From NCBI GenBank assembly GCA_016793585.1, contig JAEUJR010000834.1, forward strand, positions 1 to 11,167: a stretch of 11,167 nt of DNA. The letters are read 5' to 3'. This stretch comes from Archangium sp. (GTDB lineage Bacteria > Myxococcota > Myxococcia > Myxococcales > Myxococcaceae). How positions within the stretch are numbered: position 1 is the stretch's first letter; every line of letters begins with the position of its first letter. A program made the translations under genes and the position numbers. A model generated the notes under the pieces. That model searched no databases. It worked only from the letters and a program-made list of their open reading frames with translations, and had not been told where the DNA came from. Positions 5,671 through 9,615 of this stretch are shown here, one piece after another.

Positions 5671-7362
5671 GTGGCCGAGACCGATGAACAGTTGCTTGCG
5701 CGTTGGCGCGAGACTCTGACGACGGTGCGTGGCTTCGAGGGCCAACGGCTCGACCCGGTCGACCGACAGACGCTGAACGAGCTTCGACAACAGCTGGAGC
5801 GGGCCGAAGCGGAGCTCGATCGCCGAGGGCTGCGTCGCACGGGCCTGACCCGTGACGGACCGTGGCAGCCACTGACGATGCACGTCGCGGCACCGCAGGA
5901 AACGAGGCCCGAGGTCGAGCTCACGTGGGAGCCGCGCGAGGAACTCGGCGTCAACAGCCTGCTGGAGTGGCTCGCCGACCCACGCTCCGACGAGATCGAC
6001 TGGGACGAGTACCACGCTGAGAACCCGGCACTCGTGCGTGAGTGGGAGCGCGAACGTGAACGGGAGCTGCCCAGCTTCCCCGAGTCGATGCCCCTCACCC
6101 ATCGTCGTGAGCCCGCCTTCGTTCCCGAGCTGGTCGATGGGCTGACGGCTGATCAACGGTTGCTCATCGAGCGCCTTGGTTCGGCTGTGCTTTCGCAAGA
6201 CCAGCTCCTGGCCGCCCCGCCCGATTCGAGCTCACTTCCTCGGGCGCTCGAGCAGCTTCGTCTGTCGCGGCGCCATCCATTGATCGCTGAGCACGGTGGG
6301 CTGATCGGGCTGACGCCGCTCGCGGCGCAGATGATCAGCGTGGAGTCAGGTCGCGTGCGCGTGCACGGTGGCTTCTTCCCCAACCTGCTCGCCAACGGTG
6401 CGGCCGATGCGTTCGCGTTTCCGGAGTATCGGATCAACCACATCATCGGCGCGGCGAGTCTCTTGATGGAGCATCCCGAGACGCCTGATCAGGATTTGGA
6501 GCACGCGCTCGGCTCGCCGCGGCTGGACGATGATGACGACGGCTGGTCACCCGCCAGGGGAAACATCATTCGTGTCCGCGTTCATCCGCTGCAGTGGGAC
6601 ATCTCGAACCGGCTCGAGTTCCATTTCCACACGCCCGAGGATGCAGCGCGTGCGGCCGAACGCCTTCGTCTCGCAGAGGAACGGCGCGAGTTCGACGAGG
6701 GCACCCAGCACGCGCTCTCGGACGGCACGAGTCTGGTGGTCACGCTGCCGCCAGGCGTCCAGGGCATTGCCGTCGTGCGTCGGTTGTCGAGAGATCGCGC
6801 GCTCGAGAGCTGTTGGCGGCTCGACACGACGTGTCTGCACGAGGGTGAGGCGAGACCGCGCACGCCTCGAAAGATGCTCGAGGTGTTCGTTCGCCGCTCG
6901 CGAGAGGAGGTTCTGCGAAGGCTCCGGCGCGAGAGACTGCCGGCCGACGACCGCCTGGAGATCATCGAAGGTCTGATGCGCGTCGCCGCAGATTCTCGCC
7001 TGGCCGCGCTCGTCGACGCTGCGCAGTCGAGGGAGGAGGCGGTCTGGGCGCTCACGCACCTCGGACGGCTCGAGGTCACCGGTCACCCGACGCTCGGGCC
7101 CCATGCCGTGAGCGCGGAGCCGTTCTCGGAGCCGCAGGCACGCGCCATCGTGTCGACGACCGGCCTTCATCGCCGGCTGCATCTGCTCTCGCTCGAACGC
7201 GAGTCACTGCTCGAAGCGCTCGGGTCGCGACTCTCACCGTTCAGACCGGCAGAGATCGACCGCCTGGTGCACGAACAGTTCGCGAGGGTTCTTGGGCTGG
7301 CGAAAGACGCCGACCTCTCCGTGCAGGCTCGACTGACGGTCAGCGCCTCATCCCGAGGGTGA
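5671..7362 (+). CDS. Degenerate GyrA/ParC-like protein lacking the active-site tyrosine and C-terminal pinwheel
   Basis: A 563-residue protein; about residues 145-535 follow the breakage-reunion domain of DNA gyrase/topo IV subunit A in order but compressed. VDGLTADQRLLIERL (155-169) matches the DGLKPVQRRILYAM region. DSSSLPRAL then RHPLIAEHGG (185-210) matches GDSAIYDAL...YPLVDGQGNFG. LTPLAAQMI (214-222) matches RLTPIAEEML. FFPNLLANGAADAF (235-248) matches FPNLLVNGSSGIAV. MLEVFVRRSREEVLRRL plus IIEGLMRVAADSRLAALV (402-448) matches the tower/coiled-coil entry, and FSEPQARAIVSTTGLHRRLHLLSLER (split here at 485-510) matches the SEVQAQAIL...RLTGLER segment. The Arg-Tyr active site (R121/Y122 in E. 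coli) falls in a deleted or replaced stretch and no Tyr is present there, so DNA cleavage is not expected. The protein ends where the GyrA coiled coil closes, without the DNA-wrapping domain. Residues 1-145, with a charged coiled-coil-like helix at about 30-52, are unrecognised. The start is GTG. Family call by eye. Confidence 0.78.
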   Translation: MAETDEQLLARWRETLTTVRGFEGQRLDPVDRQTLNELRQQLERAEAELDRRGLRRTGLTRDGPWQPLTMHVAAPQETRPEVELTWEPREELGVNSLLEWLADPRSDEIDWDEYHAENPALVREWERERERELPSFPESMPLTHRREPAFVPELVDGLTADQRLLIERLGSAVLSQDQLLAAPPDSSSLPRALEQLRLSRRHPLIAEHGGLIGLTPLAAQMISVESGRVRVHGGFFPNLLANGAADAFAFPEYRINHIIGAASLLMEHPETPDQDLEHALGSPRLDDDDDGWSPARGNIIRVRVHPLQWDISNRLEFHFHTPEDAARAAERLRLAEERREFDEGTQHALSDGTSLVVTLPPGVQGIAVVRRLSRDRALESCWRLDTTCLHEGEARPRTPRKMLEVFVRRSREEVLRRLRRERLPADDRLEIIEGLMRVAADSRLAALVDAAQSREEAVWALTHLGRLEVTGHPTLGPHAVSAEPFSEPQARAIVSTTGLHRRLHLLSLERESLLEALGSRLSPFRPAEIDRLVHEQFARVLGLAKDADLSVQARLTVSASSRG

Positions 7363-8764: not shown

Positions 8765-9615
8765 CGCTCGGCTCCTTCTGCGAGGTGCTTCGCGGGGTTC
8801 TCCTGCTTCACGAGCGACTCGTACGCGCGGCTGCGCGACAGCACCGCGTCGGCCTTGAGCGTCATCGTCTCCCACAACATCCACGGGGCGTGCGTGGCCA
8901 GCACCTGCTGCGCGCCACGCTCGAGCGTCGCGCCATCGACGGGCACCTGGGTCTGCAGGTCGTAGGGGCCGATGCCGCGAACCTTCAGCGCGTCGCGCGC
9001 ACACGACACCTTCGTCACGCGTGCGTTCGAAGCGACACCCGTGGTCGCGAAGTCTCCCGGCACCGCTCGAATCGCGCTCACCACGCGGCGCTGGCCGTCG
9101 AAGTCGAGCTCGTCGCCGGGCTCGAGCGGGCGAGCCCACGAGACCTGCACGCGCGCGTTCGGCGGCGAGAACTCCACCGCACTCACGGTGCCGAAGCAGA
9201 GTGGAGGCGCGCGCAGCGACCGGTCGACCACGTCGCCGGCCTTCTCTCCGAAGATGGCGCGCAGCAGCTTCTCCTCGGGGCTCAGCGGCGTGGCTCCGCG
9301 CGCGGCCACCTTGCCGATGAGAATGCTCCCGGGCTTCACCGCCGAGCCGCCCTGCGCCACGCCACGCTCGTCGAGGCCCGCGAGCGCCTCTTCACCGACG
9401 TTCGGGAGGTCGCGCGTGAACTCCTCCGTGGCCTCGAGCGTCGTCTGGAACCACACCGAGTAGTGCGTCGTCAGCTGCTCCGCGAACGCCGGGCTCACCA
9501 CCACGAAACCCTCGGGCACCGACGCATCGGCCGCCACCGTTCCCGATGGCGCTCCCGTCGGCTGCGAGTCTGGGAAGAAGATGTTCGTACGCAGACCATC
9601 GATGGGCTCGGACAT
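8761..9615 (-). CDS. Reduced RNA polymerase beta (RpoB)-like protein without catalytic lysines
   Basis: A 284-residue protein made of separated pieces of RpoB, which is normally well over 1100 residues. Residues about 36-150 match the beta segment containing EEITxDIPNVGEEAL: FTRDLPNVGEEALAGLDERG, VKPGSILIGKVAARG and SPEEKLLRAIFGEKAGDVV are near-identical to real RpoB, followed by GTVSAVEF. Residues 155-183 match the VxVYLAxKRxIxxGDKMAGRHGNKGVIS strand, but GDK has become GDE (167-169) and GNKG has become GQRR (174-177), so both catalytic Lys (K1065/K1073 in E. coli) appear lost. Residues 211-275 match the RpoB C-terminal region: VRGIGPYDLQTQVPVDG, then ETMTLKADAVLSRSRAYESLVKQEN. The rifampicin-binding lobe, protrusion and flap insertions are missing. 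It is first in a two-gene operon with the RpoC/alpha fusion, in the same order as rpoB-rpoC. No good Shine-Dalgarno precedes ATG 9615, so the start is less certain. Confidence 0.88.
   Translation of the reverse strand: MSEPIDGLRTNIFFPDSQPTGAPSGTVAADASVPEGFVVVSPAFAEQLTTHYSVWFQTTLEATEEFTRDLPNVGEEALAGLDERGVAQGGSAVKPGSILIGKVAARGATPLSPEEKLLRAIFGEKAGDVVDRSLRAPPLCFGTVSAVEFSPPNARVQVSWARPLEPGDELDFDGQRRVVSAIRAVPGDFATTGVASNARVTKVSCARDALKVRGIGPYDLQTQVPVDGATLERGAQQVLATHAPWMLWETMTLKADAVLSRSRAYESLVKQENPAKHLAEGAER
8772..8777 (-). promoter_or_regulatory. Shine-Dalgarno fixing the start of the RpoC-like gene at 8764
   Basis: AAGGAG on the minus strand, 7 nt before ATG 8764 and inside the end of the RpoB-like gene. 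Together with the RpoC-type N-terminus MKDVFSFFE it settles this start over the longer open frame that continues to 9139, which is an out-of-frame shadow of the RpoB-like gene. Confidence 0.8.

Follow-up and report, generated by a model that had tools for sequence, protein, structure and literature searches.

Why would a bacterium keep genes for a shortened RNA polymerase that lacks the catalytic motifs of the enzyme? The question is raised by a contig of Archangium sp. (JAEUJR010000834.1, positions 1 to 11,167; the window, meaning the whole 11,167-nucleotide stretch that was analyzed), on which two coupled genes encode shortened homologues of the β and β′ subunits, RpoB and RpoC. We refer to these proteins as mini-RpoB and mini-RpoC and to the pair, with its relatives in other genomes, as the miniature polymerase. 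Below, genomes, loci and family entries carry handles beginning with G, L and P, respectively. The gene pair is laid out as follows.

8761..9615, (-) strand: mini-RpoB, 284 amino acids, an intact open reading frame (start 9615, stop at 8761), assigned by NCBIfam and profile-profile alignment
7340..8764, (-) strand: mini-RpoC with a C-terminal domain of the α subunit (αCTD), 474 amino acids, an intact open reading frame (start 8764, stop at 7340), assigned by NCBIfam, Pfam and profile-profile alignment
8761..8764, (-) strand: ATGA, the mini-RpoB stop codon and the mini-RpoC start codon in a 4-bp overlap

A preliminary description, made from the sequence alone, had reported two coupled frames of 284 and 474 residues whose ends overlap by 4 bp (ATGA). 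Both frames are indeed intact at those coordinates and amount to 758 residues together. Its view of the locus as an rpoBC-like operon needs amending in two respects. The rpoBC-like gene order is real, but the two-gene form is one architecture in a family that consists mainly of single chains (31 of 43 relatives). Both the RpoB and the RpoC similarity stand, but the αCTD at the end of mini-RpoC had been overlooked, so that the pair comprises β, β′ and αCTD.

The window pair is homologous to β and β′ in sequence and fold. In profile-profile alignments, mini-RpoB residues 46–273 align to residues 849–1351 of real RpoB (E = 1.2e-49) and mini-RpoC residues 1–318 to residues 1–492 of real RpoC (E = 5.8e-78), similarities far beyond chance in a comparison of the kind that had been proposed as a check; the profiles of the real proteins were built from the rpoB and rpoC products of genome G001 plus 30 and 29 further sequences, respectively. 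NCBIfam matches mini-RpoB to rpoB (6.7e-37) and mini-RpoC to the β′ model PRK14906 (2.9e-38). Structure predictions, which are single-chain models, cover a fused homologue, P0007, and the GyrA-like protein discussed below. The fold of P0007 is predicted with a local distance difference test score (pLDDT) of 89, its halves superimpose on β and β′, and the fold predicted for the miniature chain resembles the flap/clamp core of RNA polymerase.

Both catalytic motifs are gone, as the preliminary description had claimed for each protein. The NADFDGD metal-binding motif of β′ is found in the real RpoC of G001 and in 0 of the 45 family entries (P0001–P0045); the HGNKG catalytic loop of β is found in the real RpoB of G001 and in none of these 45 entries or of 20 RpoB-like entries (P0002 is counted in both lists). 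The totals for the real proteins, 30/30 RpoC and 31/31 RpoB, provide no independent control beyond G001, because the other 29 RpoC sequences were chosen by NADFDGD with GPVKDYEC and the other 30 RpoB sequences by HGNKG with PEEKLLRAIFGE. An active minimal polymerase was rejected on the absence of both motifs and of RpoC behind residue 492, but for a β′ C-terminal piece, the presence of which is suggested by a structural match.

If catalysis is lost, what has been kept? In the window the following elements can be placed.

9238..9279, (-) strand: β flap-tip helix PEEKLLRAIFGEKA, residues 113–126, 14/14 identical to the real RpoB of G001
8797..8997, (-) strand: β C-terminal region, residues 207–273, placed by profile alignment
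8729..8764, (-) strand: β′ N-terminal motif MKDVFSFFEAPK, 8/12 identical to the real RpoC of G001
8414..8578, (-) strand: β′ zinc-binding domain, residues 63–117, with its four cysteines present
8015..8224, (-) strand: switch-2/TTIK region of β′, residues 181–250
7790..8014, (-) strand: β′ barrel shell, residues 251–325, with the NADFDGD loop deleted
7367..7549, (-) strand: αCTD, residues 406–466, with serine at the position of Escherichia coli R265

Identity to the real proteins amounts to 40/53 in the zinc domain and 20/49 in the switch-2 region; the barrel shells and the β C terminus are retained as well, and the four-cysteine zinc pattern is present in all 42 family entries of at least 400 residues. 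Missing from mini-RpoB, by profile-profile alignment, are RpoB before residue 849, the stretch from flap to barrel, the HGNKG loop and most of the stretch leading to the C-terminal region. In mini-RpoC little of the clamp head remains, the lid, coiled-coil tip, rudder and NADFDGD loop are gone, nothing aligns beyond residue 492, and the clamp-helix coiled coil, the site of σ region 2, is reduced to 8/56 identities, i.e., lost. Single-sequence alignment can understate retention: P0036 scores 0/14 at the flap tip although its sequence contains LSPEEKLLRAIFGE, and the P0002 β C terminus, unaligned in this way, is aligned in the profile-profile comparison. Judged by homology, the elements retained by the window type are docking surface.

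The window pair belongs to a family. In a protein search (120 of 1070 matches listed), 43 relatives outrank ordinary RpoC; 31 of them are single chains of 690–825 residues, and most are one β-β′-αCTD chain. Named sources among the matches listed are few (Archangium, Kofleriaceae, Myxococcales). We also searched 572 genomes of Myxococcota and kin, namely all 195 of the phylum of G001 and a sample of 377 from the phylum of G004, scoring the best 5 candidates of each genome in the first set and the best 2 in the second. The search for the pair in other genomes, proposed earlier, thereby yielded relatives, mostly as a single chain, in at least 14/572 genomes (at least 7/195 and at least 7/377), which is a lower bound. 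A tree that combines 36 miniatures with 30 real RpoC sequences, which has long branches and was built by a quick method with a midpoint root, places the miniatures on one side of a branch with a Shimodaira–Hasegawa-like approximate likelihood-ratio (SH-aLRT) support of 100; family rows P0009, P0010, P0014, P0017, P0031, P0032, P0042 and P0044 were omitted from this tree. Four changes between single-chain (26) and split (9) forms are needed on the 35-row tree, and the clade of the window is split and nested among single-chain relatives.

Long open frames and deletions in common are seen in 24 aligned relatives. Eroded copies also exist, in G004 (broken), in G072 (partly) and in G001 (C53). The copy of Paraliomyxa miuraensis (L157:8453-10844, (-) strand) looks broken, with the β N-terminal part in one frame followed by a second frame that starts behind the zinc domain. 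A phage or plasmid origin was rejected: none of 50,697 phage and 72,556 plasmid records has one place that covers 80% of the RpoC-like protein. Among the records listed (20 of 43 phage, 20 of 75 plasmid), every annotated match is either an ordinary rpoC or the RNA polymerase gene of a phage, and the rest are unannotated; the best 50 of 441 matches to viral predicted structures comprise RNA polymerases of viruses, entries without a name and, at low identity, a single tail protein.

The pattern of retention is mirrored by a second kind of miniature, termed type II here, whereas the window type is termed type I.

L151:8449-10770, (-) strand: second miniature of G002, 773 residues, with retention opposite to the window type
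L187, L188 and L198: further type II loci

At all four loci the coiled coil is retained and the flap tip, zinc ribbon and αCTD are lost. L151, which also lacks the catalytic motifs, has 42/56 identities to real RpoC in the coiled coil and 11/20 in the rudder, and the coiled coils of the type II miniatures of G002, G156 and G154 have 42–44/56. Type II was detected in at least four genomes (G002, G156, G154 and G516) in the two genome sets, for which the best candidates of each genome were scored and one search was limited to E 1e-61; all four also have type I. Scoring 19 loci for the elements gave 9 of the window type, 4 of type II, 4 fuller forms and 2 partial ones (G072, G004). The fuller forms combine coiled coil, flap tip and zinc domain, with the αCTD in G407 and G525 and without it in G549 and G009; the flap tip of G525 is weak. 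The score cut-off of 55 was our own choice, but positives and negatives are well apart: ≥153 versus ≤36 for the coiled coil, 68–102 versus ≤28 for the flap tip (G525, at 45, excepted), ≥166 versus ≤53 for the zinc domain and ≥146 versus ≤37 for the αCTD. The order that we infer is that an ancestor resembling the fuller forms came first and that the two types later divided its docking surfaces.

Are these genes maintained? Between the window and G154, the ratio of nonsynonymous to synonymous substitution (dN/dS, NG86) is 0.20 for mini-RpoC and 0.20 for mini-RpoB, and it is 0.31 for the fused miniature of G002 versus G156. For comparison, real rpoC and rpoB give 0.07 and 0.045 (G001 versus G154) and neighbor genes 0.11–0.30, the value of 0.295 for the WYL control being probably too high, as it includes an N-terminal extension of doubtful reading. 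The orthologues are thus not evolving neutrally, in answer to the dN/dS check suggested earlier, and purifying selection together with intact frames supports the proposal that selective retention reflects a maintained function and not decay. Low dN/dS combined with identity below that of flanking genes marks the miniature genes, at the sequence level, as maintained but fast-evolving.

According to published passages on RNA polymerase, σ region 4 binds the β C-terminal region as well as the helix of the flap tip, and the β′ clamp helices receive σ region 2 (PMC6755090). NusA sits on the flap tip and the αCTDs, and its S1 domain is close to the zinc finger (PMC8940904); the clamp helices are common to NusG and σ (PMC7819879); and the phage Xp10 protein P7 contacts β′ residues 1–10 and the flap tip (PMC3985653). 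By homology, the window type would retain the sites for σ region 4, NusA (ω apart) and P7, and type II the clamp helices, to which σ region 2 and NusG bind. That catalytic motifs are lost everywhere and docking parts are lost complementarily is, as far as sequences can tell, the strongest hint at function. The reading that we favor, to which we give about an even chance, is that the miniature mimics docking sites, a shrunken paralogue that would titrate proteins docking on the flap tip, the β′ N terminus, the zinc domain and the αCTD. As a soluble pseudo-polymerase, it would compete with the real enzyme for factors whose docking sites are the flap tip, zinc domain and αCTD; a first guess at its partners is the cell's own σ region 4 and NusA, and the main rival guess is inhibitors from phages or competitors. 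The protein would then presumably be expressed and bind partners. A decoy or competitor role had been among the early suggestions and is the best fit for a catalytically stripped, selectively retained paralogue. It is less likely that the window protein by itself sequesters σ at both docking sites, since the coiled coil is missing.

Several observations weigh against the docking-site mimic. No copy was detected in 558 of the 572 genomes (best candidates of each genome scored), and neither the N-terminal extension nor all of the spacer is accounted for. Identity between the window and G154 is 97% for a TamA-like gene and 95% for the WYL gene, compared with 91% for mini-RpoB, 87% for mini-RpoC and 78% for the GyrA-like protein, and this faster change also fits relaxed constraint. 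Calculated segment by segment within mini-RpoC, pN/pS does not single out the docking parts, since its lowest value is in the switch-2 segment (0.15), followed by the zinc domain at 0.20, and the αCTD has 0.30 (few changes). Gene conversion could help to keep the zinc domain, where 7/8 four-fold sites are identical to those of real rpoC (chance 0.38), compared with 2/5 in the flap tip and 3/6 in the coiled coil (chance 0.37–0.39), although these counts are too small to decide the matter. Finally, the role of the conserved segments could be structural, or these segments could diverge slowly as they do in real RNA polymerase; the latter is disfavored by the contrast between type I and type II, a contrast that rests on about three type II lineages, G002 and G156 being close relatives.

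The rival that survives best, possible but in our estimate unlikely, takes the miniature polymerase and the GyrA-like protein encoded beside it as decoys or sensors that soak up phage or competitor proteins aimed at the flap/zinc face of RNA polymerase and at the GyrA breakage-reunion domain.

5671..7362, (+) strand: mini-GyrA, 563 amino acids, a degenerate GyrA paralogue whose 3′ end overlaps the mini-RpoC 3′ end by 23 bp

This product is homologous to GyrA and is shortened: its sequence alignment begins only at residue 180 of real GyrA, past the winged-helix region with the catalytic tyrosine. It belongs to a separate family that has 21 other members in the database. Its tail-to-tail position with mini-RpoC favors a joint role, as do its location within 10 kb of a miniature polymerase in G154 and G002 and its co-occurrence with it: of the 195 genomes, at least 4 have a detected mini-GyrA and 7 a detected miniature polymerase, and 3 genomes have both (hypergeometric 1.1e-4, without regard to kinship). 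The two are, however, on different contigs in G001, and G155 has mini-GyrA with no miniature polymerase detected. The patchy distribution and the eroded copies (G004, G001 C53) would also suit decoys, as would a PIN-domain gene adjoining the miniature in G003 and, in the passages of PMC3985653, the binding of P7 to two elements that the miniature retains. Against this, no effector domain is attached to the miniature, no gene is common to all 16 neighborhoods compared by all-against-all BLAST, and a PADLOC scan of 10 proteins (3 of the miniature family, mini-GyrA and 6 neighbors) gave no defense-model match over a protein, the matches being weak, to WYL regulators or, for PglW (16.4 bits), confined to the αCTD stretch. 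A wider version, also doubtful, would make a matched dead set of two pseudo-RNA polymerases dividing the docking sites and a pseudo-gyrase, absorbing factors or inhibitors as decoys; a division in which type I holds the flap tip, zinc domain and αCTD and type II the clamp coiled coil is likewise tentative.

Distinctly less probable than these decoys is an endogenous regulator, in which the αCTD would recruit the protein to UP-like DNA, where the flap/zinc face would influence transcription. The domain itself is secure (PF03118 at mini-RpoC residues 406–465, E = 6e-16, 58.4 bits against a gathering cut-off of 23.8), and its presence in most members speaks for this reading. In E. coli, αCTD residues R265, C269 and S299 contact DNA. 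Also in favor, at the position that we take to be 265 in E. coli numbering, arginine occurs in 20/37 rows, which were selected by a pattern that includes residues 258–263. Against it, R265, C269 and S299 are relaxed, and at position 265 the window clade (n = 5) has serine in four proteins, that of the window included, and alanine in one. With arginine in 20/37 rows and serine in the window, DNA binding is not a common trait of these domains, which weakens UP-element-like binding as their common function.

A neutral relic of an rpoBC duplication on its way out, which the broken copies (G004; G072 partly) and change faster than that of neighbors might suggest, is very improbable, as decay is disfavored by dN/dS of 0.20–0.31, by the long open frames and shared deletions of the 24 aligned relatives and by the single clade that the miniatures form apart from real RpoC.

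A conserved operon partner was rejected, as none is common to the 16 neighborhoods; shared neighbors occur mainly between close relatives, mini-GyrA and the TamA-like gene excepted (Pfam covered 27 proteins, drawn from 7 of these neighborhoods). The genes observed around the miniatures are listed here.

3970-5652, (+) strand: WYL-domain regulator adjoining mini-GyrA, its position kept in G154
9726-11165, (+) strand: POTRA/TamA-like outer-membrane gene, divergent from mini-RpoB, adjacent in G154 too and about 4 kb off in G001
738-2804, (-) strand: protein of 688 residues in which a GGTAMA tract is repeated close to the N terminus
L179:6914-8728 and 8718-10463, (+) strand: tandem mini-GyrA pair of G154 with overlapping ends; a nearby gene is uvrB-like by eye
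L152:11341-11745, (-) strand: PIN-domain gene (PF01850) with a small gene behind it, adjoining the type I miniature of G003
L207:8866-9518, (+) strand: two small genes, resembling a VapB/VapC pair by eye, after the type II miniature of G156

The PIN domain is the usual toxin of VapBC pairs.

Among the best-ranked papers in open-access full text, outside which most subscription journals lie, none describes a dead RNA polymerase paralogue or decoy of this kind, and the passages of PMC12409349 on decoys in bacterial immunity contain no dead-polymerase decoy. For a conserved, catalytically stripped RNA polymerase family whose docking surfaces are split between two members of one genome, no counterpart was found in this literature. 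If σ, Nus factors or phage inhibitors do bind, titration by a pseudo-polymerase would be a new form of transcription control or protection, and biochemistry would gain in the miniature a compact, soluble portion of the RNA exit face with which to look for factors and inhibitors that bind the flap.

Comparison with known systems sets out what is particular to the miniatures. Bacterial RNA polymerase (RpoB, RpoC, RpoA) shares with the miniature a homologous flap, zinc domain, switch-2 region, barrel shells, β C terminus and αCTD, but NADFDGD and the HGNKG loop are absent from the miniature, and neither RpoB before residue 849 nor the catalytic portion of RpoC after residue 492 has an aligned counterpart in it. 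Most relatives resemble the single-chain two-barrel RNA polymerases, YonO and those of crAss-like phages, in having both barrels in one chain. These enzymes retain their catalytic aspartates, which are gone from the miniatures. Mini-GyrA differs from DNA gyrase subunit A in being shortened, with sequence homology from residue 180 of real GyrA. A functional parallel would be T4 AsiA, Xp10 P7 and the anti-sigma proteins, for which, in passages of PMC6755090 and PMC3985653, the same contact of σ region 4 with the flap would be the target; they, however, are small unrelated proteins that bind RNA polymerase or σ, whereas the miniature copies the RNA polymerase side of the contact.
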